64,000 nucleotides of DNA from Liolophura sinensis (taxonomy: Eukaryota > Mollusca > Polyplacophora > Chitonida > Chitonidae): positions 55,973,187 to 56,037,186 of the forward strand of contig NC_088301.1 in NCBI RefSeq assembly GCF_032854445.1, written 5' to 3'. The position numbers and the translations under genes were made by a program. Shown one piece after another: positions 21,589 to 46,373 of the stretch (its first letter is position 1; the number at the start of each line of letters is the position of its first letter). The notes under the pieces are model-generated. The model had not been told where the DNA came from. It saw only the letters and a program-made list of their open reading frames with translations, and searched no databases.

Positions 21589-21690
21589 ACACCCTCGCTA
21601 TTGGATTTGACAGATCTATTTCGTGGTATTGGTGCATGTACACCCTCGCCACTGGATTTGACAGATTGTTTGGTGGTATTACTGAAAAGA
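21589..21690 (+). repeat. 51-bp tandem duplication just before the gene A start codon
   Basis: ACACCCTCGCTATTGGATTT...GTGGTATTGGTGCATGT is followed by ACACCCTCGCCACTGGATTT...TTTGGTGGTATTACTG. Offset 51 bp (17 codons), two copies with a few substitutions. It lies in the presumed 5' leader. Confidence 0.8.
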
Positions 21691-21747
21691 TGTGGCATCC
21701 GTACGCCACTTCAGTCAGGTTGGGACATCTGACATTTCCCTTTCTCG
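21690..21747 (+). CDS. Gene A exon 1: start of signal peptide
   Basis: ATG at 21690 gives MWHPYATSVRLGHLTFPFL, then donor GTAAGT at 21748 with one leftover base G. This is the phase-1 end needed by exon 2, and joining gives a signal peptide (LTFPFLGCLVTVLRLGFVSA). The same frame is open upstream from an ATG at 21528, so a longer N-terminus is possible, but it would place the hydrophobic stretch internally. Chosen by phase, strong donor and analogy with gene B exon 1; the exon is more than 4 kb from exon 2. Confidence 0.55.
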
Positions 21748-24700
21748 GTAAGTAGACACATATGTATGCTTAACCAACTCTGAAACAACTTCGATACATA
21801 GTAATTAACCATCTAAATGCCTCAAGATAAACTTGGTCTACCAACTTAATTGGATTATCCATATTTTAAGGTGTCTTTTTGGTCGAATTTTGTTTTCAAT
21901 CCGGTACGATATTGCGATGAAAAAGTCGATAGTTCAGTGTATGGAATACATCGGCTACTATATAAAGCGTAAAACAAAGTTGTTCCGTACAGCGTACAAT
22001 ACAGTTTATTTCAAACCTAAATAAGCCAATTTGGTGTTTCAGGCAAATCGGCATTATTATATACACGGTATTATTATATACACAACTACAGAAGGTACAG
22101 TTAATTCCACTGTATACCTGAAATCATGAATGAGTTTTAGGCTATTCACAACATGTACAACGATCGATACATATTGTCCCTCTCCAAAGTTTCCTTTAAT
22201 TTTGTTCATGGAAATAAATATATTGTGCCAAGTGCCATCTACTTGTAAACGTTTGGAATGGACCTGGCGACATTGCTATTATATGCTATTATATCTGTTA
22301 CTTTCTCTGTAGGGTGCACAGTTTCCCTGTTACTGCCGAAGATTCACAATTTATTTCATAACATAGCTATTATAGAGTATCCTCTTTTGCATAGCGCCTC
22401 TGCAAGAAATTTCATATAAAACTCTAAACATATAAGGTCGCGCGCTCGAACCCAGCTACCGCTAATTGATCCGGCCGAGACTGTAGGTGATAAGTACATG
22501 GTGACCACCTGACTGCACCCGTTGGCACCCATAAACGTCACCACGGTCATATATCTATATGTGAAATTTCTTGCTTACGGCGAAGTTAAATGGAATTTAA
22601 CTACAATATCGGCTAGTCAACTGCTTAATTGTTGTCTTAGCTAATGACTCTTAACCTATTTTAAAAAGAAGTAAAGGAGCAGTATTCGTTTCATAATATT
22701 ATTCTATTCCTTTACGGAATACAATGAGTCTTGAGAATATTCCACGGATTCAGTATAAGGGGAAGTCACCCGAATTAAGTACATAGAGAACACAGCAAAT
22801 ACTGTAATCCAGCAATTTCCGCAATGTGGCTTATTGTACGGAAGTGAACAGCTGTTGGCTGACAAGGTATAAAATACCAAAGTTACCATAACTGTATGCC
22901 AACAAATATCTGCTCAGTTCCTCAGAAAAGCCACGTTAACCAAACTACCTTTCCATGAAATAAACCACAATACATTTTCACATTGCCTTTAGGGAATATA
23001 TAGACTATTAATATTTGTATTTCAGTGTGGTAAATTTCAAAGCAGGTCAAACGATATACAGGGTAGATACGGTAAATAAGCGACAGCTATTGGGAAATAT
23101 TGGGAAATTGGGCAATATTCACCACATACCGTATACCATGAAATTAATTAAATCCTTTTATTTTTTGTTTTGATGGCCACAAAGATTACCGAATGCTGTT
23201 ACTATGTGGAGTTAATAGGCACCTCTCCAGAATGATATGATCTGCAGGTATATGGAAATGGCAATAAAAGAACAGCTCGTCCTCACGTATTGCTGAGCGC
23301 CACACAGCAAGGGGTTTGCTGACAATGAATTTAATCCATGCGATGTCAAGAACACCTGTTGCATAGTTGTTTCTCATATTGTGCATACTAAGCTTGTAAT
23401 ACCTCAAGTTATGATTCAGCGTCGTCAAACCTATTTAAACGTAGTATAGTGTGAATTCAGACAGTTATGGCAAGCATTTCGTGTAGTAATCAAGTTGTAG
23501 GCAAACTATAAACAGAATTTCACAGACCCTATATACACACATACATCCTTATTGTGACTCATTGGTGTACAAGCTCAATTATGCAGGTTGATAATCAAAT
23601 TGATAAACAGTTGAAATTTTAAGAGGAAATGAGTATAAGTATACAAATGTGATATCCATATGACTGGTCTGTAATTGGAAAGATTCTGTGTATGACAACA
23701 CAGCTGAGTTCGTCGGAGCTTGTTGCCATATGGCAATCCTCTTGCTTTTTTCACTTGTACAACACTTGTACTATAGCCATCTTTGATTCTGTTACTGCAA
23801 TCACAAATCGAAGATGTTGACGTCCTGTTTCTAATTTGTATAGATTCTCAGGGTATAAATGTTTGATAAAAGCAAACACATCAACAGTATTTATTTATTT
23901 ATTGGATTGGTGTTTTACGCCGTACTCAAGAATATTTCACTAATACGAGGGCGGCCAGCATTATAGTGGGAGGAAACCGGGCAAAGCCCGGGGGGAAACC
24001 CATGACCATCCGCAGGTTGCTGCCAGACCTTCCCACTTACGCCAGGTCTGCCAGCATGAGGCCAACATGAGCTGGTCTTGAACTCACAGCGACCGCATTG
24101 GTGAGAGGCTCCTGGGTCATTAGACTGCGCTAACGCGCTAACCGACTGAGTCACGGATGCCCCACAACATTATTATAAACTTTTTCTAACGTTGATGCAT
24201 ATTTGACAATCTGGATCGGAAAATTGAATTTGACAAGATCCAATAAGGAATATGTTTTAGCTCTTCTCACTCCGTCTTCCTATCTCAGTGATTCTCTCTC
24301 GTTGTGACCTGAACTGTGCAAGTAGTAGTGTGTAATGTGCTTTGGAAAGGAGTTACAAATCTATTTTTTATTTGCCACTTCTTAGAAACGTGGAGACATG
24401 GAATTTAACGCCAGTGAATGCAAAATGATCCCTAGTTTTGGATTTGTAGATGAATGGTAATTTTTATACATTGTGAATGCATTAAACGTATATCGAAATT
24501 TCAAGAATTTTAATTTTTAAAAGTTTCAGGGCCATTAGATTTCATCTCTTTGGAAATTATCGAGCAATTATTATTCTGTATACGAGAGCGTGCCTGCTGG
24601 TCTTATCAACTTTAAAACAATAATTATAAAAAACGTGTCAATGCTTGAGATACATTCTTTTTTTTCTATCCTGACCGTTCATGGTATTGGCTGAATGACG

Positions 24701-27700
24701 GTAGGAGCCGAGTTTTTTCCTTAGTGTTCCATGTGCTCCATGTTCTAATCTTTCATTGCATTATTACAATAAAGCTGAATCATGTCGCCACTTAGTCATA
24801 ATGGCTGGAGCACTCCTCACATTGTTAGAAAAGATGTTGAATTCACAGATATTGAATCTGTTCCCATGTCACTCGGGCAATGTTCGATTAACCTTTTAGC
24901 CGATGCCCATTCCCCGAAGAAATGCGGTGTCCATGTATAAGCTAGAATACTAAGATATGAGTCGGTGACAGTCGATGTCCAAAAGCCCGATGAAAAGCCT
25001 CCTGTATCTACAGTGGAGGATTGTCGATGGGTTTTTCGTGAATAGCTCCGTTAATTGTTGGGGAAGTCTCTGGACAGGCAACTTATATCGATGTCGATGG
25101 CAGCTGAGGAAAGCAGCGAGATTTACACAGCCAAACTCGATTTCTACGCGGATTATCTGGCTGTCCTCAGAAGCATATTGGGACAGGGCTAAAGTGGGGA
25201 TCGATGGCTTACCCTTCCATTCTCAAGACGGGCGCCCCTTGTCTATAATGAAATGTTTACTTGAGCCTGGTGATTTAATTTTCCGAGCCCCAAGACGTGT
25301 TTGGGTAAGACCCACCGCCGTGTATCTTATTCTACGAGAAATTGCTCTTTTGTAGACAGTTTCCGTCTGATCATGATCAAATAACCGACGTCGCTGAGGA
25401 CCTGGCTGCACTTTTAATGGCCCTTCATTTAAATCTCAGTGATAAATAGAACAATATGAACCTTTCTGGAGAAGGACGGGGCGCTCGATGTCTTGGTCTG
25501 TCAATTGAGGTTAACAGTGTTAAACTGAGGTTTCTCCGAGCGAGGAGAAAGGCCAGTGCTGACACCAGGCCCGAATATCCCTGATACTTAACACCCTGAT
25601 TTAATAACCCGCCTCTTTCCAGTACCAAGGAAACGTGCTCAACTTAATCCGAGCCAAGAAAGCGTGCCACATTTATCCATCGAGTTCGGGGAGTTGTGTA
25701 ATTTGGTTTTAGCAAGATAAAACACGAACCGAGGCCTACAAGTTTTTTGCGCCAAACAGAGGCATTTTTTTCTGGTTTGATGCCATCAAACATTTTTTTG
25801 GTAAAAAAAGTGGGAATGAATGCGGCTGTGTGGTTTATTTTGAGCCGAGACGTTTATATATCTTCTATATAACTTCTATGAAGCAGAAAGTCTCACGATT
25901 TTAAGTAAATATAAATTCTCTCATGCCATCAGTGTATCAGTCGAATATATAATCACAATAGGCTAAAAGCACTGACACTGACGTGGTACACGAGATATAT
26001 TCTTGTTTTGTCGCTGTAGGTTGCCTTGTCACAGTTTTGAGGCTGGGTTTCGTCAGTGCTTGTCCTGATGACGTCATCATGGGCGTCTACAACTGTCTAC
26101 GCCACGTCGCCTCTGACGAAACAGGATTGACTGCTAGCAACGATGTGAAGATTTTGCGATCGAAATGTTTGTAAGTCAAGACATTGTTGGTTTATTTTGA
26201 TTATAAATGGTTATGAGTTCAGTATTAGGTGAGATTCAGATATCATATCTAGAATATACTTCTTGTCAGTTTCTGAATTACGATAGTGTATAGGTTTATG
26301 AACTGTGTTATTTTCTAGGCTGTTTCCTTTAACGACGTCACATAATTATCAAATTCCGAACAGTAAGCTCATAATTATTTTACAGAGATGGAAGTTTGAC
26401 GTCACTATATCATGCATTCAGCACATCATATACACCTGTCGCTCGGACATCATAAAACAAGATCTTATACATAGAACTGTCGACCTTGCCCAGATGCGCT
26501 CCGCCTTTGAATTCACATGTGATCATTTAGACGGTGGGTTGAGATATTCTAATTTTCATTATAATTTGTTGAAGCTCAAAATATTGATTGTATATAATAG
26601 TAACAAATGTACTTTTTCACATTCTTAAGTACATATACTCTGTTTCCCAAGATTTTTTGTATTTCAAGCAGAAAATGTTATCTAACAAACTATTAAGAAG
26701 AAAATTTGAACATTTTTTACGTTGATGTTTTTAATATGTCTGAATGTTTCTTGAAATATTTTTTTGCTATTTTCAACCTGAGTAAGTGATAATGAGCCAT
26801 TGCAGATGCATTTGTCATAGAAGCAATAACCCCAGGCTCATGCAGGGCGAGATTCTGTGTTTGGCTTTCTGGATACTTTTTTCTGCCAACTGAAGTAACC
26901 TAAATTTGATATCCTGTCGGCCATAGTAGATATAGTAGTATAGCAACGCCATTACTAAATGAGACTGAATGCGTGAAAGACACTAGTGTTGTAGTATTGA
27001 AGTGAGCATTGGCGATGACATCATCAAGCCACAGGCATTTGGCTATGATCATAAGATATACTTGTTCCCTTCTTCTTCGGGCGAACATTTTTATATCCGT
27101 CATTTCCATTTGCACGACTCGTACATTCACTCCTGAAAAGATGAATGTGATGCCGTTGATTCGTTTTTGTGTTTTTGCGTTCAAGTTGCCGTGGTAACTA
27201 TTGCGAATGTCCTTCCCGTTTACAGTCCAAGTCGAGTCAGCCCACTGTGTGACAAGGTATAAAGACCAAATAAACGAGTGCAGTTCACAGGTGGCAAAAG
27301 AATTCGAAAGAGAAAAACAGTTTGCCTATACTACGGAACTGTATTTGAAACTTATATGCAGGTAACATACCTTTCTGAATAAATACGTTTTTCTTTTCCA
27401 GTGGACAATAGATAAGCTTACACTCTTCAGTTGTGATAGTATAATCCCATGCATGCATATGACATTTATGACAAAATCTTTGGTAATATATATTCTGTAT
27501 TTATGGACTCGTATGAATATCACTGCAGCTACAAAGTGAACAACTGCATGAATTTTTCACAGTTACTTTCACTTAGTAAAGATTATTTTGGGCTATGAAG
27601 TTTACAGTATACCTAGCACTTTTAAGGAGGACAGTTTGTTTTAATGTACAGGGCCGTCTTAAAAATACGGGTCTGATACAGAGGAGGCGTGCAATGGGTT

Positions 27701-28495
27701 TTACCCTCTGGAACTTTTCTGGCCTTAACGAACTGTTGATGTCTAATTATGGCATCAGGTATCTAACATTTGTACGGATTTTCTATACAAGATTTATCTT
27801 GAAAACTTGTATTTCTCTTACGCCGCACCATTTGCGATGCACAAACGCATGGCATCACAATTTGTTGATACTACTGGACGACACTATTATATACGTGAAT
27901 ACAATGGAATCTAGTCTTGCTTACCCGAGTGTCAATTGATGTAAAAGGTTGGTCAAACAGATGAAATGTCAGCTGTTCTCTATCTATTCAAAATACGACT
28001 CAATAAGGCAACCAAAACTAGTAACTTCATACAAATATATTACAATAAGCAATACATAACTCCGAAGGAGTATGGTTTTATACGAAAATTAACTACAAGC
28101 GCAAAATGGAATATGCCTAAATATACAGCCACTGTGCCAGGAAAGGAGGAGAATCAATCTAGAACATGATACAAAATTCACTAGGAATGGTACTTGCCTT
28201 ATATTTATTTAAGCAAAAGTTGAATGATGAAAATCTGACCAGGTTGATGTTAGTAATGGATGTTTTGTTTCTTCACCATCACAGCTTTGTAGATGCCATA
28301 ACGATGTGTGCCGAACGGCCGGTGAGGTCGTATTGTAGTGCCGAGTCGGCGGATGTGACTGTTCGTCTGATGTCAGGACTCAAACCGCCAGGATGTCTTC
28401 CATACAGCCGCTCCACACATATCTCATTCTCTTTTTATACAGTACTAATCATGTGTTTCATCGCTTTGGTTGTACAATTTGTTTCTTATACATAA
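21690..28495 (+). CDS. Gene A: secreted 12-cysteine, four-module protein with hydrophobic C-terminus
   Basis: Gene-level entry. Exons 21690-21747, 26020-26170, 26388-26533, 27226-27361, 28285-28495; all introns GT-AG, phases 1-2-1-2; about 233 residues. Layout: signal peptide ending near VLRLGFVSA/CP, 12 cysteines, a final hydrophobic stretch (FSFYTVLIMCFIALVVQFVS) directly before the stop, suggesting a GPI signal or membrane anchor. Spacing is C-x10-C-x23-C-x9-C-x7-C-x26-C-x11-C-x10-C-x25-C-x8-C-x8-C-x19-C. I do not recognise the family. It is a paralogue of gene B at 40.8-46.4 kb, in which every cysteine and intron phase is kept, which is strong evidence that both models are real. Function unknown; extracellular or cell-surface by signals seen. 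AATAAA signals at 28533 and 28583 follow the stop codon. The first exon is the least certain part. Confidence 0.82.
23889..24163 (-). mobile_element. SINE (Meta-core family), full length
   Basis: Antisense copy. From high to low coordinate: head GGGGCATCCGTGACTCAGTC, GGTTAGCGCGTTAGCGCAGT, a TGACCCAGGAGCCTCTCACC segment, B-box-like GAGTTCAAGACC, core, tail GGCGTAAAACACCAATCC and an AATA run. Almost intact, so recently mobile or well preserved. Confidence 0.92.
24690..25720. other. Block of even base composition, possible conserved non-coding element
   Basis: About 1 kb inside gene A intron 1 that is visibly less AT-rich than its surroundings and free of the local repeats. It holds an open + frame of 126 codons (24975-25355), but that frame has no recognisable domain and no signal peptide. 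Homeodomain-type words (TTAATTG, GATTTAATTTTCC, CATTTAAATCTC) are present. Regulatory DNA is one explanation; an unrecognised exon is another. Confidence 0.25.
26020..26170 (+). CDS. Gene A exon 2: signal-peptide end and cysteine module 1
   Basis: Acceptor GCTGTAG before 26020, donor GTAAGT at 26171. With the G from exon 1 it reads GCLVTVLRLGFVSACPDDVI, then MGVYNCLRHVASDETG, then DVKILRSKC. Three cysteines (C1-C3). It starts with one carried base and ends with two leftover bases (TT). Confidence 0.85.
26388..26533 (+). CDS. Gene A exon 3: cysteine module 2
   Basis: 146 bp. The acceptor is the second AG of ...TTTTACAGAG; using the first AG (exon start 26386) would shift the frame. It reads (L)WKFDVTISCIQHIIYTCR, then SDIIKQDLIHRTVDLAQMRS, then AFEFTCDHLD; cysteines C4-C6. 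Donor GTGGGT at 26534. Exactly the same length as gene B exon 3. Confidence 0.85.
27226..27361 (+). CDS. Gene A exon 4: cysteine module 3
   Basis: 136 bp, acceptor CCGTTTACAG before 27226, donor GTAACA at 27362. It reads (V)QVESAHCVTRYKDQINECS, then SQVAKEFEREKQFAYTTELY, then LKLIC; cysteines C7-C9. Ends with two leftover bases (AG). Confidence 0.85.
28285..28495 (+). CDS. Gene A exon 5: cysteine module 4 and hydrophobic C-terminus
   Basis: Acceptor CACCATCACAG before 28285; stop TAA at 28493-28495. It reads (S)FVDAITMCAERPVRSYCSA, then DVTVRLMSGLKPPGCLPYSR; cysteines C10-C12. A 25-residue hydrophobic C-terminus (ISFSFYTVLIMCFIALVVQF...) ends at the stop with no cytoplasmic tail, as expected for a GPI-anchor signal. 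Confidence 0.87.
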
Positions 28496-28799
28496 CATTC
28501 CGGTTACATCAGATAATTTATAATACATTGTAAATAAACTCAACGTTTCCTCGCCATTTAATTCATATTCCTTTACCTATGCAATAAATGTATTTTCATA
28601 TATTATGCTTGTTTTTGGCTTTGATACATTTGTATTACCTACAGGTCATAGTGGATTTTAAGCGTAATACTTCTTGAATATCATTGTTTAAACCCTTTAG
28701 ACATTGATTGTGCAACAACATTATCATCAAGAAATAATAAACATAACCAGAAAGACTGTGTAGCTTTATATTTAGTACAGCTCTTGTGCCCACTGTAAA

Positions 28800-28970
28800 T
28801 TGCTCGCTGGCTTACTCTCCGGTAATACGCGAGAAGGTCTGCCAGCAATTTGTGGATGGTGCTAGATTTCCTGCGGTTTGTTTCCACCATAATGCTGGCC
28901 GCCGTCGTATAAGTGAACCTTTATTCTTGAGGATGGCCTAAAACACCCATCAAATGAACAAATAAACAAA
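28800..28970 (+). mobile_element. SINE (Meta-core family), 5'-truncated
   Basis: Core words GCTGGCTTACTCTCCGG, GAGAAGGTCTGCCAGCAA, CCACCATAATGCTGGCCGCC, then CCTAAAACACCCATCAAATG and an AAATAAAC tail. Confidence 0.82.
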
Positions 28971-29794
28971 CAGAGCAATAGAATATAAATGATTTTGTTG
29001 ATGTAAAGTGGTATAAAAACTTTTCTTAAGTCCGTGATTATATTTTCCATGAATCTTACTAAACGTATAATTGTTCGTCCCGATTGATAGATATATTCGA
29101 TCAAGTACCATAATATGTGTATTCCAGACTGTTCACACATGCGTGACATACCTCCTACTTCTAAGATGATAAGGCCTACGTATGGCCGCCATATTAGTAA
29201 GCCGACTTAGACAGCTGTGTTGTTCCACCCAGAACAATCGAACGCAATTCCATTGCCGCTTTCTTGAAATAGTTCGCATGCCATTATTCCTCTGCTCCCG
29301 AGCCCCAACACCTAAGCCCTCTGGCTATAGCCATGTCGACTTAGTCACACGACAGACGGTGACTGGGGTGACAGTTCCCACTCTCAACATGCGGCTATTG
29401 ACCGATCGCAAACAGTTGCCAGCTTGAAACACTCTTTGCTTGCATGAATTGGTCTCAAATCTAATCCTCAACAGTTTAAACAGATCATATTGTTGGACTC
29501 ATAACAGAAATTTTGACTGAGGTACTAATGGTAATGTCTTAATGCAAATCGTTTCACAAGACAGGTTGCTCTGCATACATTGGACGCTTTGTTAATGGGC
29601 ACGCTTGAAGACAAATGAGAATTAGCGAAGGATCCGGGATCTGTAAAGTTCAGCCACCGTCTTATCAAGTGTTAATATGACATTATTTATTTATTTATGT
29701 ATTTATTCATCTATTGTTTGTCTGGGATTTAATCTCTTTTTCAACAGCACGGAATTCTTATAACACAATATAACACAAAAGATTACGATATACT

Positions 29795-29935
29795 GCTTAA
29801 AACCAGAACAATGACGACAGTGTGATAGATGATGGATGGTTACACTTGCAACCCGGAAGCGTGTCAGTTAAGTTCAGTTAGAGTTTTATTCTAACTGTTC
29901 TTTTAAATGTTTCAATGAAAAATATAGTAGCGATA
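29795..29935 (+). repeat. Interspersed repeat R2, copy 1
   Basis: TTAAAACCAGAACAATGACG, ACAGTGTGATAGATGATGGA, then GTTAGAGTTTTATTCTAACT. It matches the copy at 41283-41460 word by word (AAAACCAGAGCAGCGACCAC, GTTAGGGTTTTATTCTAAAT). Non-coding; family not recognised. Confidence 0.7.
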
Positions 29936-30198
29936 CTAGCAAATTAGGCTCCCTTAGTGCAATGCTTAAGAAAAACTGGGTAAAAAAATGCAGTGCTGTT
30001 AACAGCAATTATCAAGTGCTCTAGAAAGAAAAAAACACACAACAAAGAGACCATGCCTCGTAGATCCCTAGTCGCCCTGGAGAATCCTGGTTTATGCAGG
30101 AATAAAATATAAAAGGCTAAAATATACACAGTAAAAAAAAAGCCCCGCCTCGAAAATGTGTTATTTGACAATAGTCACGCATATAACCGGTGAACTCT

Positions 30199-30292
30199 GG
30201 CCTGTTCATGTAAATGCTTAAATAGTAGCAACCCAAACACCCCTAGTAATATGACATATATTTAGTCATGACTTGGCAGAATTAGGTAATAC
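30199..30292 (+). repeat. Interspersed repeat R2, copy 2 (right end only)
   Basis: TGTTCATGTAAATGCTTAAA, TAGTAGCAACCCAAACACCC and GCAGAATTAGGTAA all recur in the same order in the copy at 41283-41460. Confidence 0.6.
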
Positions 30293-30398
30293 TGCACTGG
30301 ACCAACAAGTTCTTGGCCTATCACTTTGTATGGAAGTACAGTCTCTACTTGAGATTGAACTGGGGTTTGGTGCTTGCAAGGTCGATGACGTAAACTTT

Positions 30399-30516
30399 GA
30401 TCGATTGGTGTTTTACTCCGTACTCAAGAATATTTCATATTACGACGTCAGGCAGCATTATGGTGGGAGGAAACCGGGCAGAACTAGGGGGGAAACCCAC
30501 GACCATCCGCAAGTTC
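30399..30516 (-). mobile_element. SINE (Meta-core family), 3' fragment
   Basis: On the + strand it reads GATTGGTGTTTTACTCCGTA, CTCAAGAATATTTCATATTA, then CATTATGGTGGGAGGAAACC and CCCACGACCATCCGCAAG: the antisense tail and core. The tail poly-AATA and the head are missing. Confidence 0.82.
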
Positions 30517-30599
30517 ATGACGTTTGATTAAAGATTTATTTGATAAGAACTTTTCTTTTGAAAAGAACATTGTTTTGTTAGGCCATAACATTTAACAAA

Positions 30600-31660
30600 C
30601 CCAGAGCAATCGAACGTGGTGTTTATAAACACTCCGCTTTATGTGTCAGTAACAGTTTGGCGAGTCTTTGTCTCGGCATTTCCATCGAAATTTAGAAAAC
30701 ACGATTTAATTGATATTCCTCAGACAAGCGAGAGTTATTTGCTCACGCCCTAAACCCCGCACTGCGCTATCTTCATTAAGCATAGCAAAACTTTCTAATC
30801 ATGCACGTTCTTTTTTTCTGTAAGTTTTTACAGCTGTAGTTTTAATAGCCTCACTAAGAGTATTACATGTGCGGATTTTACATGAATAGAATCGATGAAT
30901 ATTATCGATCAATTGTCTCTTACAAATCTGCATTTCTTTTCTTCCTGCTTTTTATGTGGTGCTCTGCTCCCAAGTAAAACTGAAGCATTCGAGAAACACC
31001 CAATCACACGATCAGTTTGTAAACAACCAAGTTCACGCCTCATGCAAATGTTTTACTCGAGAGCAGCAAACATAAATTTCTATGTAACCGGAATTTAAGG
31101 TCCGGATGAGCACCTAATATGAACAAAAATTTGTTTCCTTTGTTACTTGGGAAGAATAAGTGATATTAAAAACGTTGAAGCGTTAAATTTTTGACACAAG
31201 AGACACAGGCCTGAACTTGTTTTGGAGTCCGTGCATAGAAAATGACTGCAAATCGATCATAAAGTCATTCTCCACTGATTTTCGATGTTATCTCCCCTCG
31301 TCTTCTTTTCGCCATGACTCATTACATACCGTTTTATTGTCCGTTGAAACAAATGAAAAAGTATTCAAATCGATGAAAATTATACATGCGTCAGTGAATG
31401 AACTGAAATCAGTGATGCATTTACTCTCTCGAAAGAATTTGCATTATTTTTTTCGAATTCTTAATGAAGTCGTACTGTCTCATAGTTTGCTTTTGAATTA
31501 ACAGGGGCTTTGAATTTTACTTCAATCATGTAACAATTGTCTTCTGGAAACAGTACAGCTCCAGTGAAATTAGAAAGTCACGTCGCTCTGAAGTACCATG
31601 TCACTGGCACCAAATACATGACGCGTGACAAAGTAATAGTGGTTTTCGTAGTGCTCAGGC
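30600..31660. other. Intergenic block without a gene
   Basis: No coding signal on either strand. Contains homeodomain/POU-like words (GATTTAATTGATATTCC, CATGCAAATG) and even composition; could be regulatory DNA. Nothing definite. Confidence 0.2.
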
Positions 31661-33444: not shown

Positions 33445-33470
33445 ATACGAATGTCTGTTTCGACGCCGAG
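33445..33470. repeat. Copy of a transposon-end sequence also found at 58670-58691
   Basis: 22 bases starting ATACGAATGTCTG and ending TTTCGACGC are identical at 33445-33466 and 58670-58691. At 58.7 kb the sequence is the outer end of an imperfect inverted repeat, so both may be ends of the same transposon family. Confidence 0.5.
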
Positions 33471-34463: not shown

Positions 34464-34616
34464 GGAGCATTCAGTGCGGCCACTGTGAGATCAAGTCCAA
34501 GTCATGTTGGTTTCGTTTCCGGAATGTATGTCAGCGGAAGGCTGGTTGTGGGTTTCCGGGCTTTGTCCCACCACAATCCTGACTTCCGTCCTATAAGTGA
34601 TATATTCTTGACTTAC
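34464..34616 (+). mobile_element. SINE (Meta-core family), internal part
   Basis: GGAGCATTCAGTGCGGCCAC, a GAGATCAAGTCCAAGTCATG B-box region, GTTGTGGGTTTCCGGGCTTT and CCTATAAGTGATATATTCTT. The tail is replaced by the 77-bp tandem array that starts at 34618. Confidence 0.75.
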
Positions 34617-34617
34617 T

Positions 34618-34995
34618 GAGAGTTGGCTTACTGGTATAATACGGCCAATGTATGTAAAACATTTAATGTGGTACTGGACACTGGCTGTGTACCTGAGAGT
34701 TGCATTTCTGGTATAATATGACCGGTGTATGCCAAACATTTAATGTGGTACTGAACACTGGCTGTGTACCTGAGAGTTGGCTTACTGGTATAGTACGACC
34801 AGTGTATGTCGAACATTTAATGTGGTACTGGACACTGGCTGTGTACCTGAGAGTTGCATTTCTGGTATAATACGACCAGTGTATGCCAAACATTTAATGT
34901 TGTACTGGACACTGACACTTTAACTGAGAGTTGGTTTACTGGTACAGTACGACCAGTGTATGTCAAACATTTAATGTTGTACTGGACACTCAACG
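34618..34995 (+). repeat. 77-bp tandem repeat, alternating units (154-bp dimer)
   Basis: The unit runs from GAGAGTTGGCTTACTGGTAT through CATTTAATGTGGTACTGGAC to CTGGCTGTGTACCT, 77 bp, nearly five copies. Units alternate between TTGGCTTACTGG and TTGCATTTCTGG at the start, so the true period is a 154-bp dimer. Reading frames across it are chance. Confidence 0.9.
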
Positions 34996-35039
34996 CTGGA
35001 CAACATTTGCCAGAGTTAATTACTCTGTACAATGTAAAA

Positions 35040-35510: not shown

Positions 35511-35945
35511 GAATTAGCTTGGACGGAATATTTTTATTTTATAGCTTTATTTGAACAACGTCTTGAAGACCAGTTTATCCAAAACTAGCAGGCCGAAATG
35601 TCATCCTCATCTAAGGGTATTACTCACAAGATGTTTAAGGATGATTTCGAAATAGAATTTTCAATAGAAAAAACATTTTATACTTGTTAACACGAAGTTA
35701 AATAATTTAAGGATAAAAACATATACCTGAAAATATACGGCCAAGACCTAGTGTTTTTACCTTTCAAAAGCTGTTTCAATCCAGAGCAAACATATCTTAT
35801 ACAATGTACAAATACATACAAAAAAGCAATGACAATATACAGAGCATAACGGAAAACTTGTATATTTATAATTAGTATAGGAATAAGAAATGAACTGTAC
35901 AAAATGTGTGTATATTGTTTAGTTGTTCTGAAAGAACTTGAACTT

Positions 35946-36078
35946 GAATCATCCGCAGGCTGCTGGCAGACCCTGGCAGAGGATGCCAGTATTGAGCTGG
36001 ACTTGAACTCGTAGCGACCGCATTGGTGAGAGGCTCCTGGGACTGGCACGCTGTTCACCTCAGCCGCAGAGTCTCCGT
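35946..36078 (-). mobile_element. SINE (Meta-core family), head half
   Basis: On the + strand: ATCCGCAGGCTGCTGGCAGA, GAGCTGGACTTGAACTCGTA, GCGACCGCATTGGTGAGAGG, CTCCTGGGACTGGCACGCTG. This is the antisense tRNA-like head and 5' core; the tail half is absent. Confidence 0.8.
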
Positions 36079-36344
36079 TGTGTTTCTCCCCTAGATATGC
36101 CGTAGTGTTTTATATTTGGAGTCGTTAGTTTTCATAAATGCTTAAATTCTTTTGACCGTCACGAATTTATATATGTACGCTCTTATCTAATGTTTATAGG
36201 AAGGTTTTGCATTGTATTCATGATACGTGATGAAAAAGACCTTGAATTTTTAGTAATTCGAGACCACTGAAGTTATATTGTAATTAACCTCACTGTACTT
36301 TTTTATCTGCTTTTGCCGCTGCCATGGTGCTAGAGTCGTACGTG

Positions 36345-36470
36345 TAAGTTGCTACTATTTACGCGTTTACATAAACAGAGAATAAAACCCTAACTGAGAT
36401 AAACTGGGAAGATGCTAGATTTCACCGGTTATATATGACCATTTCGCAGCTGCTCTCATCCATGCCAAGC
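36345..36470 (-). repeat. Interspersed repeat R2, copy in reverse orientation
   Basis: GTAAGTTGCTACTATTTACG, CATAAACAGAGAATAAAACC, CTAACTGAGATAAACTGGGA, TGCTAGATTTCACCGGTTAT. The reverse complement of the 41283-41460 copy gives the same words in the same order. Confidence 0.68.
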
Positions 36471-36479
36471 GCGCGGTAA

Positions 36480-38035
36480 CGAAATATGTTCTGTCTACAT
36501 TGTCTACATGGCCTAATACAGAGGATTGTGTAATGGGTAATAGAAATGAGTGCAAATGTATTGGTTATGCTGACACTATTAATTTATAACCGTCACTTCC
36601 CTTGGTGTTAAACAATTGAATTGGAACTCGTCTCTCACAGTGATTCCTTACAGAGGAATAACTGACGAAAAATTAGCAATCCACAAATGAATGTACAGTG
36701 ACAATGTTTGGAAGCATAAAGACCTCTTGTGGGCTTGAGTAGCCAGCCCTGATATTAAATGAGTGATATTGTTGACAATTGCCGGCTGGTATGTCTCTTG
36801 TCACAAAAATGCACTCCCAGGCCTGATCATTCAAGTTACTATATAGCTTTGACATTTCAAGTCAATTATATACACACAGGTCCTTTATCCCCGGGTTATG
36901 AGCCAATTGACATTATATGCAATAGACAAAAGCATACAGAGAAAAACTACATATTGGTGCTAAAACAGAACATCCGTTTATATATAATATGTACCCAGTG
37001 GAACTAAACAATTGCTGACATTCTCTACCTGTGGGACATGTATGCTAAATTTGCAGTAGACCATTGACAAACCACTTTAATACGAATGTAACTTACTAAG
37101 GGTTAACAATAACGATAATCACATGTTTTGATCTGCATGGTTTTAAAATAAGAACAGAAAATCAAGCAACAATATTTATACATGTAGGCCTTTAACGTAC
37201 GACATCCCAAACGTACTGTAGGCCTAATTACAGCCACATTATTCCTAACTACTTATTCACAACACCCTGGAAGAGGCATATAGGGTAAACTTTAATTGTG
37301 GATTAAAAACCTAAAAACATGTAAAGCTCGCCAATTTCGCTTCTGTATAATCACCAACGCTAGGCAATTTCCAGGGATAGCTTGCCCCAAATTGCAAGGT
37401 CTTTGGAGAGTCATATATAAATACTGAATGAGGACAGACACTTCCAGGCCTATTTCACTATATATAGTGTCGAGGTACAAACGGGCAGCTGCTGGGACAT
37501 GGATCTCTTCCAATGCTGTATACAGTCATACAACAATGAAGGGCAACCCCTGGGCAAGCTTTCTGTGATCCATTCTTGAAGCTTTTTACATATTATACTT
37601 AAGTAACAGTTGCCTTACGCTTAATAAAAATGAAGCACCTTTACATACAGCTGACCATAAGCCCTACATTGTTCCTATAAAGCAACAATTGCCACCCCAT
37701 TGATAAATCGTGTTATCTTATTTGTGAGACACCCAACAGACATAACCTACACAAGAATATGTCATATAGTCAGCTTATGGAGAAAGAAGTGCTATTTCTG
37801 CTGAAATCTTTCAGGAACTTTCTGCGAAATAACACAGTACAGACATATCCTCCTGATACAAAGATCCTATTGCACGGCTGTTATTCTTGACCTTATCTTT
37901 GAGGGGCACGAATAAGTTCTCTGGTGTGCGTATCATATAGGAAGGATATTTATCATAGAATAAATGACGATGTCCCGCAGTTGATGTGAATAGTTTCGTG
38001 TGACGCATGATGACTTACAATATATAAAGAGTAAC
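36480..38035. other. Intergenic DNA, nothing recognised
   Basis: No domain, repeat or splice-linked frame recognised on either strand. Confidence 0.4.
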
Positions 38036-38037
38036 GT

Positions 38038-38138
38038 ATTTATTTATTTATTTGATTGGTGTTTTACACCGTACCCAATAATATTTCCCATATATGACGG
38101 CGGCCAGCACTATGGTGAGAGGAAACCGGGCAAAAAAG
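38038..38138 (-). mobile_element. SINE (Meta-core family), 3' fragment
   Basis: TATTTATTTATTTATTTGAT, TGGTGTTTTACACCGTACCC, GACGGCGGCCAGCACTATGG, GAGAGGAAACCGGGCA: antisense tail and core, then unrelated DNA. Confidence 0.85.
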
Positions 38139-38868
38139 TAATATACGAAAATTGAGACTATATATTGCTGAAAAGCATTTTGTCCTCATGACATGATGGG
38201 CATACGAGGTTTGACAGCCAGTGTGATGACGACTTCATTCTCAGTGCATTCAGGGGGTTGTGCAGTTGCGACGACGCAAATGTATAGACAATGTTCAGGA
38301 AGATATGCTATATGAAATAACCGGGAGGATCATACTTTCATCAGCCAGTATTTCAGTGATGCTTTATAGACTCTGGGTTAATAATGAAACTAGCCAGGCC
38401 AAGATACAATGATGGTAGTCTATTAAGGACGGATGAGGGTCGTCTTATTTGTATGTAAATTGAATTAACCCTCTACAGGCCACCACAAGGGAATGGCGGA
38501 ATCGATCGTGTTTCTCTTTAGCGTAGACTACACATGTCAAAGGTCAGATTAGGGGGCTGAAATTATGGGTTTGCAATTACACTAACAGAATAAGCATCGC
38601 GCTCAAATCCAATAGTGAAGGCTAAATATTAAAGAGATGAGTTTTTAGTGCGAGAAGCGTTGACAAATGAGATATTATTGACGACCTGAGAAGAGGAACA
38701 AAAAATAAGAAATACAAACCATCGTCCACTCCAATTCACTTTATTTAATCATAAACATGCTATAAAAGACAGATTGTATTATGGTAATGCGTGATGACTA
38801 ACGCGTGGCCTTGCTGCCGTGAGATCATAATGAGGTTCCCTTGCTTCAGCCATGGCTTTTTTTATAAA

Positions 38869-39126
38869 TCAAATCCCCATAGAAAAATCAAATTCCCTCA
38901 GTAACTCATATGTAGTATCCTCTTCGTTTATAGGATTTGGTCCCATTTTGAATTTGTAAAATTCCCAGTGGAGCCAACATAAAGCCTTGTCACAATTCTT
39001 CTTGTTCAAACTCAAATTAATTGCTACGACAAAATGGGAAGCACATACCTTTCTTTCCTTTGCAATAGGCATTAATTCTATCTGTCCGATATGGAAGTCG
39101 TTTCCTGTTTTCATTATTTTATCCAT
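38869..39126 (-). CDS. Unassigned 85-codon reading frame
   Basis: Open from an ATG at 39126 to a stop at 38869. It reads VCASHFVVAINLSLNKKNCD, then KALCWLHWEFYKFKMG and YELLREFDFSMGI. The composition is protein-like, unlike most frames here, but I recognise no domain, and its position between genes A and B gives no clue. A donor-like GTATGT lies within it. It could be a transposon remnant or chance. Confidence 0.2.
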   Translation of the reverse strand: MDKIMKTGNDFHIGQIELMPIAKERKVCASHFVVAINLSLNKKNCDKALCWLHWEFYKFKMGPNPINEEDTTYELLREFDFSMGI

Positions 39127-40384
39127 TCACTAAACATGCGTATGTACCTGCATGTTTTGGATTGTGCATGAATGATAACTATAGTTTTCATAAAAATTGT
39201 ACAGGTGCAGATCAAAGCAGATTTAGGGATGCATAAAGCAAGAACATGTTTAAATAAATGTCGAAATACCTTTTCCTCTCCGCTAGTTATTTCCAACCGC
39301 CATTGGACTAACTACGCTGATTTTTCTCCCATAAACACATCACATTAATATCAACTGCAATGACTGAATTAACAATTGCTTTGTGAATGTTTGGCCAGAT
39401 AAACTGCGGGGTTTATCTGAATAGTTAACTACATATAGTTAAATGCCATGCTCACACCTTTTCATTCCGCATCAGAGCAGATCTAGAAGTCCAGTATGGC
39501 ATTCAACCAACACTAGATTAAACTCAAATTAATGAATAAACTATAATAGACATAATATACAAGCTTACACTTCAGTCGTTTTCATTTATGTATAAAGTGG
39601 AGTTAGAGGTAAAAATGGTCGAATACAAGTTATATATACACATCAACCACATGTACCTTGAATGCCACTGTGGTAGGCAACTGTTATTGATGGGATACTT
39701 CAGCACAGTTATCCTCAGTAATAAATTACAAAGCGGATATTCTAGAAATTCCCATATAAAGTCTTAATATGATAAAGTAGAGCTTTGTTTCTCCACTTCG
39801 CGATATTGCAGTCATATATCGTGGTAATTGTTTCATGTGGTGTTAACTGCCTTTTCACAGAGGAAATTATGGATATGACATGATTATATTCCATGCACTG
39901 AGGAATATGTAATGATGTAATGTAATATTTGTATAATTTAATGGCTTGCACTATGAAATGTATTCCGGACTTTCAAGATTTTACAAATATCAACAACATG
40001 ATGACAGATAAATGACATCATACACTTAATGGAACTTTCTGTTTAAAGAAAAAAACACATAAATTAATAAAGTCTCTGTCAAGGCATTATGCTTGGTATT
40101 GGAGGTTTGGTCCCATACATGGAATAATATTCCAGGGAAGGTCTAAAACGTTTGGGTTTAGACTAACAAACAATTGGGTTTTAAGATTGAAGAAGCTTTT
40201 ATACAGCATGTGGAGTGAAGATCGACATGAATCGGACACCGAAAGCAGATCCATCATTAATTATATCCCATGAATCATGTTCCAAATGTTCAATGGAAAG
40301 GGGCCACACAAATCCAATGAAGATAGTACACATCTCGAAACCACAGGTTTTATTCACATAGGTAACACAGTGCCACGGTCATAG

Positions 40385-40390
40385 TTTATT
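40385..40390 (-). terminator. Possible poly(A) signal of gene B
   Basis: AATAAA on the - strand, about 430 bp after the gene B stop codon; another lies at 40349-40354. No strong downstream element could be judged. Confidence 0.3.
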
Positions 40391-40820
40391 TTCAGCTGAA
40401 GGGAACACTGCGTCAGTTTACATGCCTCACTTCTCAATATAAGTGAAAATCAGGACATACATTTTGCCTGTGTTTGAACAGGTTTTCAATCTTAGTCGTC
40501 TGGCCATTCTCTTCGTAAAATCTAAGTGCATAAATTGCGATGGCGTTTGTAACGGAATTTTATATGAAGGCCACTCGCCGTCAACCCTTCTTTAACCATG
40601 CTTTCTCATTTTAAGGAGAAAAATGAATCCCTCTAATGACGCCATAATTTCATTTTCTCGACGCTGTATTCAATTTATCCCATGCCCAAGGAGCAGGTTG
40701 CCGTGTAACGTTGTGGCCAGACAACATGAATCACACCCAAGACGGAGCAGGTAGACTGTGGCATAATGTGTTAGACACGAGACACCTCGATCGGTTCAGA
40801 GGCTACTATCTATGGCTCTG

Positions 40821-41073
40821 TCACCTTTCGGGGAACCAGACCACAAGGTCAAAGTTGAAGTTCAGGAGGCAGCTCATGGTAAACAAGAAACTAATCCAAT
40901 AGGTTGTGTTGGTGATGAGGGAATAAGGCGAGTAAGCATCGTTTGTGGGATGGTAAGGTTCACACACAGGCGGCGTAATCCCAGACATGAATTTTAATAA
41001 AATATCAGCTAGGACAGAGTCACAGGAATTCCGAACTGGTAAGTCAATGCAGCCTGTCATGCCCCGCAGGAAG
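40821..41073 (-). CDS. Gene B exon 5: cysteine module 4 and C-terminus
   Basis: Acceptor TTTTTTCCTCAG, exon from 41073 down to the stop at 40821. It reads (N)FLRGMTGCIDLPVRNSCDS, then ADILLKFMSGITPPVCEPYH, cysteines C10-C12, then a sequon NTT and a hydrophobic stretch. It matches gene A exon 5 at PVR, AD, MSG and PP-x-C-x-PY. Confidence 0.88.
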
Positions 41074-44000
41074 CTGAGGAAAAAAAGGAAAGAAATGCAC
41101 TGAAGCACAAATAAAAAAATCCGACTTTAAAGATTACTTGTTTGTATCATTGGTTCATGACATGTCGCATTTGAATGTTGCCCTTATCTCCTCTTTGCTA
41201 TATATTTCAGGAAAAATTAGTACAGTGCACCTATTGTGATTTATAATCGTGATAAAGTATAAAAGACTTACAGCATATATAGAGATTAAAACCAGAGCAG
41301 CGACCACAGTGCGACAATTGGCAAATGGCCACACTTCATTGGTTAAATGCAGCCTCTTGTCAATTTACATCAGTTAGGGTTTTATTCTAAATGTTCATGC
41401 AAATACTTCAACAGTAGCAACTTACACACCCCTTGCATCGGGGAATACGCAGAATTAGGTAAATAAATTGTACTGATGTTAGTTGCAATTTATTTGACGT
41501 CGCTGGTCTAGAAAAACTCCAAATACTGTGTTGTCATATTTACATACAAAAAAAACTTTTCCATTACTTGCATACTGTTTCCATCGTAGCCGTTTCGTCC
41601 TCGCGATTGACGCTCATTTCATAATCAAAAATCCCTTGGCGATATTCAATGCAACGTTGTATCACAGTATTTTTCCTCAGCAGACACTCTTTGTTTTCGC
41701 CATATCCTAGAAAATAAAAGAGGCGTATTAGAATTGAACCTTATCAGTATTTCAAACGCTTTTTGAAATGAGTGAATAAGTGTTTGATTCGCCATGCAGT
41801 ATAAGTTACTGAAATCAGGCGTCTTAAATGACTCATGAATTTTTATTTATTGTTTTTATTCATACCATGTGTAGATCCCAATACAAATGGTATTTTCCCA
41901 CTTGACTGTATCTGACATGAACACAAACTGCACAACTTCCTCCACAAGATAAAAGTGAATGTTCGGGTCAAAGGGAAATAACATATAAGTGGGGCATCAA
42001 TTTTTTCCATCGAAATCAGCGTCATAAAGCCATCAGTATTACAAGATATGTACAAAAAATTACACATTACATATCAAGTGGGTTGCAGTGACCATGCATC
42101 ATTAACTATTCACTAAAACGGATTCTGTGACAGTTTAGAACAGTTGCCGATGATGTTCAGAATTTCCTTCCTCAATGAGTAAACACTATAATTACGGAAA
42201 TGTTGAATTAACTGAAAATATGTATACTCATGTATGTTGTAGAGCAGTGTTGGGCAGGTTAAGTGGGAATAAGTTAAGTCAACCACATTTACACAAAATG
42301 GATTGTATTAGGTACGTTTCCATATGGACTCTCCTATACACTACACGAACACTACACAGCATGAAACAAATTACCCCACCTAATTTTAGCATATGAGATT
42401 TATTCACCTTGTATGTAAAGGTTTCTTCATTTTCGGATAGAACAATAAGCTGATATATATGTATGAGTACACCTCTGTCAGTGGTTAATAAATGAAATGA
42501 ATTATGAAAAACTGAAATCTGAGATGTGACTATAAAATGTACAGAATTCGGTTCAAACCAGTATGCATGATTTGTGCTTCCGTGAGCCCGACCGAGAGCA
42601 ATTCGTCACACTGACAGCAATTCGTCACGCTGACAGCAATTCGTCACGTTGTGACATCGACAGTGTTTCACATATTTGCAGGGTTTTTTTATATCACAAG
42701 GCATTATTGGTCAAACCATGGGATCACACATGAAGGCCTACTATAATTAATTAGAGAGTATACACAGTCTCACGCACCACACACTGGAGATACACTGCTA
42801 CACGGGCGTGGTGTTCACTGACCACAGTTCTACAGTCTTATATAGACCGACAAATTGGCATTGTAGTCAACTGTATACAAGAGTTGTTTCCAGCGGATAT
42901 TTGGCTAGGAAGCGGTATAGAAAGCCGTTAACACCATTCTAGACAAATAACAAAAAACGATATAACTTTTGTTAGATAGTTGTACCGTGTGTGAAAAAAT
43001 ATGTCTTGGGATTTAGATATCCGTAACATCTCCTTTTATGTGAAAAGTTATAAAAAAAAATCCATACGCAAATGTACGATATACATTAGTTGTAGTTAAA
43101 AGCAACCACTGTTACACTGATCATGCCCACTTTACAAGCACGCATATTGCCTTTGTTGCTTATGTACAGATACAGGTTTGGATAAGCAACAGCGATTATA
43201 GACTATTGATTAACTGTTGATTATTTTCATCAATAGTGTGTTTCTTGCTATTCAGTTTTGGAAATCTGTCACAGTTGTTGTGATAGGAGATCCTCTTAAA
43301 CATCTTTTTTTAAAACAAATTAGAATCCTTTGATCAAGAGTATAATCCTAAGTATCCACTTTTGTACAGGCAAACAATGAAGTGTTTAAAGCAAGTAATA
43401 CATAGCATACTCACGGAAAAGGTTGTCACAAAACACTTTGAATCCTTCGTCCATCAAGACTGTGTTTGCGAGACGACTTAATAAAGCCTGCCGTTCAGAA
43501 TAACGACAAACATGATTTAAATTTTGGACACACCCCACCGCCTTGTTGAAACTGCCGTCCCTGAAGGGCGTGAGTATGAGAGAGAGAAAGTGTCATATTC
43601 ATATTTGACATCGACAGAGGGGCGAATAAGCCACATTGCAATTGAACGAATGAACAAATGGTTATATAGATTATTGTCACTTCCGCTATATTGCAAAATA
43701 TATATCATGACGGAAATATGTATAAACCAGGTGACACATTCATCGTTGATTGATGAGTTGTAAGAGATGCACACCCATGCATGAAAAAACTTTTCTCTTT
43801 ACGCTTACACCCACTTAATGGTAAACAATAATAAATAATGTCATAAACTTTTGATCAGTATTCTTTAGTATTTTAATCTTGGTTGTCGGCTGCTGCTTGT
43901 CACCCAGTACTGTACTTACTCACACCGGGCCTTTACGGCGCGAAGATCCGCCCCAGCAACAATTAGTTCCTGGGCGTTAGGTCCCAGGATGTCCCGGAAA

Positions 44001-46373
44001 CAAGCGAACACTGATGAAAACATATCACGTGGACAAGTGACGGTAGCACCTTTCTGTGTCAGCAGGAATAAGATCGCTATAAAGTGAAAAAAGATCCAAG
44101 GGTTACGGAACGAAGAAGGTGTAAAACTATTAGTTTTAGGTTTGTCCACATATATTTAGCATTAGCACCTGAGGAAACCAGGTGAAGTTTGGTAAATAAG
44201 ACCCTCTGACATAAAGTTGCAGACGACCCATCAGCAGCATCATACTCTAAATTCGAGAAAACTCATTGAATATAATAAATTATATCTTAATACACACTTG
44301 TTCTCAGACGCCGTAGGAACACTTAGATGTGGAGCTTATTTTTTGGGAAGACTAGTGGTATACATTTCAAATCTTCGACTGTTTACCTGTTTGTCCCAGT
44401 GTTAAAGACTTAAAAACCATAGTATTTGGATCACACTCCTTTGCTATCAAAATCATACTTTGCTGTGGGGATGTAACGGTGAAAAATGGCTCTGCCTGGT
44501 ACGGAACAACCAGTCTCTGTCTAAGAGATGTTTCTCAAAGCGGTCGTAATGTTACGCCGGTCGCAAATACCAAGGCAACGTATGCCGTCAGTATGCATCA
44601 TCATGGTGATTCGGTCGTAACGTTACGACACCATTAGAAATCAGGCCCTGGTCTGAAGTGATACCTTTAGTTCAATTAATCCTGGGATGTAGCATAGCTG
44701 TGATCTTGATATTCTAAGTGTAAAATAGTAGGGGTTTTTTGTATGAACATACGCAGTAATTCACATTATTATAACACCTTCCCGGTTTTAAGGGTCATGG
44801 ATTTTAAGGGTCATTTCTATCTACCTCTGTGTCCAACATACTATAATTTCCTCTTAATGATGATTCCAAACTCTAGCTTCCTTTCCTAAGCATGTCTTAG
44901 TTGCTTACATAGTTTTTTCCAGTATGGAATCAGATTAGTAAACGCCATGTGTAAACGTGACATTTGAACTGTTGTTCCAAATATGTAATGCAACCACAAC
45001 GTGCATAAAGTAGGCACATGAAAAACGGCAGCCACTGGAATCGCAGTACAATATACAGCTGAGGTAACTATATATTTGTCCGTGTTTGCACTATCCCCTG
45101 AGGCAGAGAACTGAGTTTGTGTAATGAGCTTGGTGGCAACTCTATCGGCTTTACTGCACATTTTGGAAAGCAATGCTTCAGTTGTCACTTTCACTGGTGT
45201 AACGTTATTGAAATGGAAACTGTATTTTGAATAATTCAACAGAAGAAGTTGTAGCAAATATAACGGCCGATTACACTGCATACTGTCAGTAGAAACACTT
45301 GCTTTACGATATGGATCGATTACAGTAGTAAATCACTTTGCCATTTGGAGAACCAGATTAGTAACAATTATGTTTCGTGTGACAGGAAATCTCCTTCAAA
45401 CACTATCCTCCAATTTGTTATAGCTCTGACATTTTCAACTGTGATGTACACAGCTCTTAATTTGTAGTGGTAGACAACCGTGCAGAGCTATATTTACCTA
45501 AAAGACAATGTGATTGCGCATGTATGCAAAATACAAAGAGCAAAAACATTAGGTGCAAATACACATCTTATCCACTATACATATGGAAAAATTGCGTTGC
45601 AAAAATCACCAGTTTGATAGTTATGTGTCTTGTATGTGTTGGATGAACTACTCAACCAAACTCAACCAAACGGCGTATGCAAGCAATGAAGAGTGGAACC
45701 AGCAATGCTGACAAGTAGAACAGACATTTAGCGTGGGATTCAAGGTAACTGATGACGCCTAATCAGAGAAAGAATTTCGGGTGAAAGAAATTGTAAGTTT
45801 TCATACTAATATTGTTATTCTGAAATGACAGCAAAAATCTATGCTATGCTATGAATGATACATGAATGTACTGGCATTTAAATTTAGTAACTATCTGAAC
45901 GCTCGCTTAGAAAGTATGATGCCTTAGAGAAGAAACATACTTGTAAGGACAGATAAGGTTTGCCAAACATTTGGCACTGGAAACAGAACAGTCTTGACTT
46001 TATTTGTATCATGGAAATGCCGGTAAACAACTGGTCGCATTGAGTTTATATTTCAAACTAAGGCAACAGGTTACTGTCGTGTGAATATATATCCTCACAC
46101 ATTTATCCAAGAAATACGTGCAAACCGTTCACCTGACTCTAAATATCCATCTGATGAAGAGTTATCAGAACAAAATAAGCAGTGAGCAAAGAGCAGGTTA
46201 AGTGGAAGCTGCCCAAGTCAAGTCAAGAGTAATCAGTTCTGACACGTTTTGCCTATGTATCAAATTTAAGACTTAACTTTCAAAACGTGTAAAGCACGAG
46301 CGTATTCCGTATTGAGTTAATACTTACTGGCAACGGTGGTGAGTTCCAACAGCCTGCTGTACATCCATTCCAT
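40821..46373 (-). CDS. Gene B: secreted 12-cysteine, four-module protein, paralogue of gene A
   Basis: Gene-level entry, - strand. Exons 46373-46328, 44076-43920, 43560-43415, 41706-41568, 41073-40821; introns GT-AG with phases 1-2-1-2, exactly as in gene A; about 246 residues. Signal peptide (from MEWMYSRLLELTTVAT on), 12 cysteines spaced C-x10-C-x25-C-x10-C-x7-C-x25-C-x11-C-x10-C-x26-C-x8-C-x8-C-x19-C, and a hydrophobic C-terminus (YWISFLFTMSCLLNFNF). The last residues VVWFPER are less typical of a GPI signal than gene A, so a membrane helix or a secreted form is possible. One N-glycosylation sequon (NTT) precedes the tail. Overall identity to gene A is low apart from cysteines and a few positions (CP at C1, C-[IV]-Q in module 2, PVR, AD, MSG, PP-x-C-x-PY in module 4), so the duplication is old. 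Function unknown. Confidence 0.83.
41283..41460 (+). repeat. Interspersed repeat R2, longest copy
   Basis: Best copy of the family, inside gene B intron 4. From AGATTAAAACCAGAGCAGCG through AATGGCCACACTTCATTGGT, GTTAGGGTTTTATTCTAAAT and CAACAGTAGCAACTTACACA to GCAGAATTAGGTAAATAAAT. Other copies: 29795, 30199, 33780, 36345 and probably 51107. No coding capacity, no clear terminal inverted repeat. Confidence 0.72.
41568..41706 (-). CDS. Gene B exon 4: cysteine module 3
   Basis: 139 bp, acceptor TTATTTTCTAG, donor GTAATG. It reads (R)YGENKECLLRKNTVIQRCI, then EYRQGIFDYEMSVNREDETA, then TMETVC; cysteines C7-C9. C7-C8 spacing (10) is identical to gene A. Confidence 0.85.
42597..42650. repeat. Three copies of a ~20-bp unit (AGCAATTCGTCAC)
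   Basis: AGCAATTCGTCACACTGAC, AGCAATTCGTCACGCTGAC and AGCAATTCGTCACGTTGTGA in direct succession, inside gene B intron 3. Could be a cluster of binding sites or a simple slippage product. Confidence 0.75.
43415..43560 (-). CDS. Gene B exon 3: cysteine module 2
   Basis: 146 bp, same length as in gene A; acceptor CCCTTCAG, donor GTGAGT. It reads (E)DGSFNKAVGCVQNLNHVCR, then YSERQALLSRLANTVLMDEG, then FKVFCDNLF; cysteines C4-C6. The C-[IV]-Q-x5-C-R pattern is shared with gene A. Confidence 0.87.
43920..44076 (-). CDS. Gene B exon 2: signal-peptide end and cysteine module 1
   Basis: Acceptor CACTTTATAG, donor GTAAGT directly after TGTGA (using the overlapping GTGAGT would lose the frame). It reads (T)ILFLLTQKGATVTCPRDMF, then SSVFACFRDILGPNAQELIV, then DLRAVKARC; cysteines C1-C3. 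The frame also runs upstream to an ATG at 44149, but the acceptor and the match to gene A favour a separate exon 1. Confidence 0.83.
46328..46373 (-). CDS. Gene B exon 1: start of signal peptide
   Basis: ATG at 46373 gives MEWMYSRLLELTTVA and one leftover base, then donor GTAAGT. Joined to exon 2 it makes a normal signal peptide (LLELTTVATILFLLTQKGAT). Phase 1 as in gene A. Short and more than 2 kb from exon 2, so less certain than the others. Confidence 0.6.

Follow-up and report, generated by a model that had tools for sequence, protein, structure and literature searches.

In its Pfam description, the DUF19 (PF01579) or T20D4.11-like domain is extracellular, carries 12 conserved cysteines, and occurs in one or two copies. 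The GDNF/GAS1 domain (PF02351) is helical, cysteine-rich, and often GPI-anchored. As excerpted from the literature, C. elegans has 51 DUF19 genes, 42 of them with a signal peptide and 14 infection-induced (PMC3534327), and the table of a norovirus pull-down includes an oyster DUF19 protein (PMC10058639). Excerpts on the insect family DUF1397 (PF07165) place the Bombyx 27-kDa glycoprotein in it (PMC8358373) and find orthologues in the mosquito peritrophic matrix (PMC5865745); the Galleria 27-kDa haemolymph protein, of unknown function there, is raised after Fusarium (PMC4224417), while in another excerpt the level of the 27-kDa protein at 24 h was lower, not higher (PMC6025711). Among the papers listed by our searches of an open-access library, we recognised none on the molluscan family described below, whose members A and B lie in a 64,000-nucleotide stretch of Liolophura sinensis DNA (the window).

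Two five-exon genes in the window

The original prediction placed two paralogous genes for a secreted 12-cysteine protein in the window, and both were recovered there. The models of A and B are ab initio predictions with the following exons in window coordinates.

21690-21747 (+): gene A exon 1; start codon and beginning of the putative signal peptide, from ATG to a GTAAGT donor, phase 1
26020-26170 (+): gene A exon 2; remainder of the putative signal peptide, Cys 1-3; placed by splice sites, phase and genome search
26388-26533 (+): gene A exon 3; Cys 4-6, C-I-Q motif
27226-27361 (+): gene A exon 4; Cys 7-9
28285-28495 (+): gene A exon 5; Cys 10-12 and the PVR/MSG/PPxC motifs, then a hydrophobic tail and the stop codon
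46328-46373 (-): gene B exon 1; start codon and beginning of the putative signal peptide
43920-44076 (-): gene B exon 2; remainder of the putative signal peptide, Cys 1-3
43415-43551 (-): gene B exon 3; Cys 4-6, C-V-Q motif
41568-41706 (-): gene B exon 4; Cys 7-9
40821-41073 (-): gene B exon 5; Cys 10-12 and the PVR/MSG/PPxC motifs, then a hydrophobic tail (weaker than that of A) and the stop codon

The joined exons encode 233 residues in A and 243 in B. All eight introns (four per gene) have GT-AG boundaries, and the phases are 1-2-1-2 in both genes, in agreement with the shared five-exon structure first proposed. The 12 aligned cysteines are distributed three per exon over exons 2 to 5, with spacings of 10,23,9,7,26,11,10,25,8,8,19 in A and 10,25,7,7,25,11,10,26,8,8,19 in B. 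When recomputed, 7 of these 11 spacings are identical, exactly those that had been listed as such. The remaining cysteines lie outside the aligned 12: in A, one each in the putative signal peptide and the tail; in B, a single one in the tail.

Exon 1 is the least certain part of the models, being assigned from its donor, phase, and hydrophobic start. A scan of 18000-26010 found only one exon-1 donor for A, and when ATG-to-GT[AG]AG first exons with a fitting phase were compared over the stretches searched, the most hydrophobic start used the originally chosen donor in both genes. An alternative in-frame ATG within exon 1 lies at 21636 for A and at 46364 for B. The best 10-residue hydropathy before the first cysteine is 2.24 for A and 2.26 for B, in each case across the exon 1-2 junction, consistent with the putative signal peptide. 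The hydrophobic C-terminus was also confirmed, with a best 15-residue mean hydropathy of 2.73 in A and 1.48 in B.

A and B are genuine paralogues. BLASTP aligns them over 193 aa with 27% identity (E 2e-26), in keeping with the low identity claimed outside the shared motifs. The alignment reaches a z of 15.5 against 300 shuffles with every cysteine kept in place, and the likeness therefore exceeds the shared cysteine pattern. A and B are not one another's nearest copies: B scores 373 to locus L038 on another contig versus 213 to A.

The family across the genome

A and B served as queries against the genome (609 Mb, 632 contigs); stretches of up to 10 kb around the matches were read, and family exons turned up on other contigs. 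A search with L043, an intronless member, gave 31 places, among which five further stretches were read. In total, we read 17 loci, nine with five exons and eight with intronless frames. The family thus has at least 17 loci, a lower bound because only the best search candidates were scored, and further fragments on contig 10 fall outside this count. The two genes first described are real, but rather than a stand-alone pair they are 2 of the 17 loci of a larger dispersed family.

Exons 2-5 are complete in five of the nine five-exon loci, including L036, L038, and L045 with phases as in A and B. L039 and L040 are partial: exons 3 and 5 are present, exon 4 is represented by weak candidates (E 0.0015 and 0.0086), and no exon 2 was found within the stretch read. 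The remaining two appear decayed. L035 has a substitution at its fourth cysteine, with exon 4 split over two frames; L037 has no donor at exon 2, stops inside exon 5, and weak exon 4 candidates (E 0.16 and 0.25) in two frames. Among the intronless loci, L041, L042, and L043 are uninterrupted frames, L051, L052, and L053 have one domain each, and L049 and L050 have two domains each. L050 continues in the same single open frame from its two 12-Cys domains into a long Thr-rich and then an Ala/Gly-rich low-complexity stretch; L049 ends in a short Thr-rich stretch.

We compared 12 domains (A, B, L036, L038, L045, L043, L052, L051, L042, L041, and both of L049), setting aside the decayed L035 and L037, the incomplete L039 and L040, and the near copies L053 and L050. 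Each of the 12 has exactly 12 cysteines, as expected from the constraint originally proposed, and the invariant columns of an eight-sequence alignment are the 12 cysteines and one proline. Profile comparison of the five-exon and intronless groups by hhalign gave 98.8% (E 1.3e-16), and hmmsearch between groups gave E 2.5e-16 to 0.0077 in one direction (7 of 7) and 1.4e-14 to 3.6e-9 in the reverse (5 of 5). By these sequence comparisons, we consider the two groups homologous beyond doubt. A maximum-likelihood tree separates five-exon (5 rows) from intronless (7 rows) sequences by one split with support 100/100, in a tree that carries a long-branch warning and in which 6 of 9 inner branches are weak. 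The single split suggests one event of intron loss, or of intron gain, within this sample.

The most recent pair, L043/L053, has a dN/dS of 1.04 (23 changes, 5 synonymous and 18 other), which is compatible with relaxed constraint; the other two intronless pairs tested have values of 0.53 and 0.43. We also considered an internal two-fold duplication of the domain, given its spacings (10,25,8,7,26 / 11 / 10,25,8,8,19) and repeating phases, but comparing the halves by hhalign did not show it (P 0.11 local, 0.46 global).

A 15-residue mean hydropathy of at least 1.48 was found in 11 of the 14 tails examined (A, B, and 9 of the 12 others), and the hydrophobic end was absent from the other three, L042, L049, and L035. 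In L043 (contig 10, 32653300-32655430), the C-terminal tail is encoded by one unit of a 100-bp minisatellite that has 21.5 copies over 2.1 kb and runs on downstream of the gene. Tail-only matches similar to that of L043 occur downstream of other contig-10 copies. Since the tail of the contig-10 intronless genes belongs to this minisatellite, it may not have evolved as an anchor signal in them.

Predicted fold

The proposal of an alpha-helical, disulphide-rich exported protein gains support from AlphaFold models of two intronless relatives, both all helix: L043 (nine sequences) with pLDDT 88.0 and pTM 0.82, and L041 (seven sequences) with pLDDT 86.0 and pTM 0.77. These are models of relatives, from which we infer by homology that A and B share the fold; the 12 cysteines would form six disulphides. 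Foldseek searches of the PDB at E<=10 gave 132 matches for the L043 model (best E 1.0) and 55 for the L041 model (best E 2.6), none at E<=0.001. Among the best 50 matches of each model (of 132 and of 55), the TM-score to the query is at most 0.31. A viral fold library gave 0 of 94 at E<=0.001. At the sequence level, the family profile found no PDB sequence and a consensus found one at E 0.8.

Searching with B by phmmer matched 22 PDB sequences, the best a polyubiquitin fusion at 7.1e-11, with no stretch individually significant; single ubiquitin gave E 0.14 and worse. We put the best score down to many weak copies accumulating across the signal peptide and exon 2 of B, and rejected polyubiquitin kinship.

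Distant likeness to DUF1397, DUF19, and CPG4

All 12 proteins or domains scanned against Pfam fall short of every cut-off, and in that sense the family was rightly called unrecognised; what that label missed is a weak, apparently collinear likeness to DUF1397, DUF19, and CPG4 (PF15481, chondroitin proteoglycan 4). For DUF1397, A has E 0.94 at full length and 0.64 trimmed, and the best real protein among the 12 scanned is L038 (E 0.22), with 11.3 bits versus a gathering cut-off of 25.7. A five-exon consensus, which is a computed sequence and not a genome-encoded protein, exceeds the cut-off with 27.2 bits (E 2.9e-6), its best stretch covering only 92-160. The intronless consensus matches at E 0.0015 over residues 7-176 to HMM 27-198 of 207, and a leave-one-out consensus at E 0.0032 over 9-176 to HMM 29-198. 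DUF1397 is the top-scoring family for both group consensuses.

An all-member consensus had no DUF1397 match, and of the 10 leave-one-out consensuses DUF1397 was matched in 3 (best 1e-5) and missed in 7, with DUF19 in 2 and DUF445 in 4. Consensuses also match unrelated families (Rota_NSP4 at 5.9e-4, DUF445 at about 0.002). The consensus E-values are therefore optimistic. Ten cysteine-keeping shuffles gave no match to DUF1397, DUF19, or CPG4, and their best match to anything was 0.0068.

The best real protein for DUF19 is again L038 (E 0.028, 14.7 bits versus a cut-off of 23.2), and the best consensus reaches 16.3 bits against the same cut-off. These weak matches are in register, L038 85-174 aligning to HMM 58-144 and one leave-one-out consensus 4-167 to HMM 1-148 of 157. 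CPG4 matches L038 133-209 over HMM 18-88 of 94 (E 1.2e-4), with 23.0 bits versus a cut-off of 32.7, and is absent from the other 11 proteins scanned. Genome-wide runs of the DUF1397, CPG4, and DUF19 profiles recovered none of the family loci, A and B included, and the DUF19 profile found nothing in the whole genome. The places that DUF1397 and CPG4 did match (L046-L048) were discarded, as no family pattern appeared in their reading frames with at least three cysteines.

DUF1397 resembles the family in being a secreted-size protein, with a weak match to the intronless consensus that appears collinear over most of the domain; the insect members in the excerpts cited above are haemolymph or matrix proteins, from which A and B differ by their hydrophobic C-terminal tail. 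The family has 12 cysteines and one- or two-domain proteins, which may parallel the DUF19 description. The CPG4 likeness covers the C-terminal part only, in 1 of the 12 proteins. From these sequence matches, a distant kinship to DUF1397, DUF19, and CPG4 is likely but unproven, and the family probably represents an outlying branch of previously catalogued orphan families. A lophotrochozoan-only family, which had been raised as a possible outcome, is unlikely because these three are secreted-protein families of insects and nematodes.

Candidate functions

Altogether, we read A and B as encoding a secreted or GPI-anchored helical binding domain that is distant kin of DUF1397, DUF19, and CPG4, with a probability of roughly 0.55 for this reading and a function that we infer. 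Each would be a single-domain extracellular protein with a signal peptide, an all-helical six-disulphide domain of ~170 residues, and a hydrophobic tail, probably acting as the signal for a GPI anchor. The candidate role as a surface scaffold follows from the protein being exported, helical, cysteine-braced, and hydrophobic at its tail. The domain would most likely be a rigid scaffold whose variable surface binds an extracellular glycan, a microbe, or a partner protein, with tailed members on the cell surface and tail-less two-domain members in mucus or matrix. The family would most likely be a distant branch of a superfamily including insect DUF1397 and nematode DUF19 and CPG4. Because its candidate relatives are haemolymph, peritrophic-matrix, or infection-responsive proteins, a role in defence or surface recognition appears most likely by analogy.

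Several other explanations can account for parts of these data. The proteins could be building blocks of extracellular matrix, mucus, or egg coat without specific ligand recognition, like CPG4 or the DUF1397 of the peritrophic matrix. L050, which couples two 12-Cys domains to Thr-rich and Ala/Gly-rich stretches, the Thr-rich end of L049, the CPG4 match on L038 (1.2e-4), and the excerpted report of DUF1397 orthologues in peritrophic matrix (PMC5865745) all fit such a role, but A and B are single-domain proteins with hydrophobic tails and the CPG4 match is under its cut-off (23.0 of 32.7 bits), and we regard a purely structural role as rather unlikely. Diversifying selection on a gamete-recognition or allorecognition family would be consistent with the dispersed copies, the decayed L035 and L037, the 27% A-B identity that is low outside the cysteines, and the L043/L053 dN/dS of 1.04; the ratios of 0.53 and 0.43 in the other two pairs tested argue against it and make it improbable.

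That A and B are non-functional relics of an old family is very improbable: although 2 of the 9 five-exon loci (L035 and L037) look decayed, A and B retain open frames, 8 of 8 splice sites, and all 12 cysteines despite 27% identity. A GPI-anchored co-receptor like GDNF-receptor-alpha or GAS1 shares a general likeness with A and B (exported, helical, cysteine-rich, with a hydrophobic tail), yet PF02351 is not among the families at E<=10 for any of the 12 proteins, A and B included, and no GDNF-receptor chain is among the best 50 Foldseek matches of either model, so that this identity is hardly credible. A genome search with PF02351 also found no match and carries little weight because its control was likewise silent.

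The preferred reading of a secreted or GPI-anchored binding domain has a wider form, which we offer tentatively and consider doubtful as a whole. The six-disulphide all-helical ectodomain would be a new fold class without a solved counterpart, a single molluscan split would have produced a five-exon GPI-anchored line and an intronless line duplicating to two-domain mucin-like proteins, and DUF1397, DUF19, and CPG4 would be joined in one protostome-wide superfamily of extracellular binding domains. If the kinship is true, orphan secreted families of insects, nematodes, and molluscs become one superfamily with one fold and a shared, testable role. With no Foldseek counterpart in the PDB, one solved structure would serve all these families, and the one-time five-exon/intronless split would give a dated handle on the spread of the family.

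Other features of the window and genome

Between A and B lies a 77-bp tandem repeat of about five copies (34615-34990). A minisatellite at 19142-20490 has 39-bp units with 171- and 459-bp higher-order periods and is open over 389 codons (+); it is probably not a gene. An exon at 7566-7913 has a sub-threshold match to the ion-channel family Ion_trans (E 0.0029, 17.3 of 25 bits). Downstream of it on the same strand lies a charged open frame of 307 codons (11804-12724), and the two perhaps belong to one channel gene. We also observed a large palindrome at 51900-52891, with two 424-nt arms (0-1 mismatch) around a 144-nt AT-rich spacer and a second AT run beside it at 52921-53022, which could represent either a foldback element or an artefact of assembly. 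Elsewhere in the same genome, contig 8 carries eight haemocyanin beta-sandwich units in tandem, one of which matches PDB haemocyanin chains including keyhole-limpet KLH1, marking the genome as molluscan.
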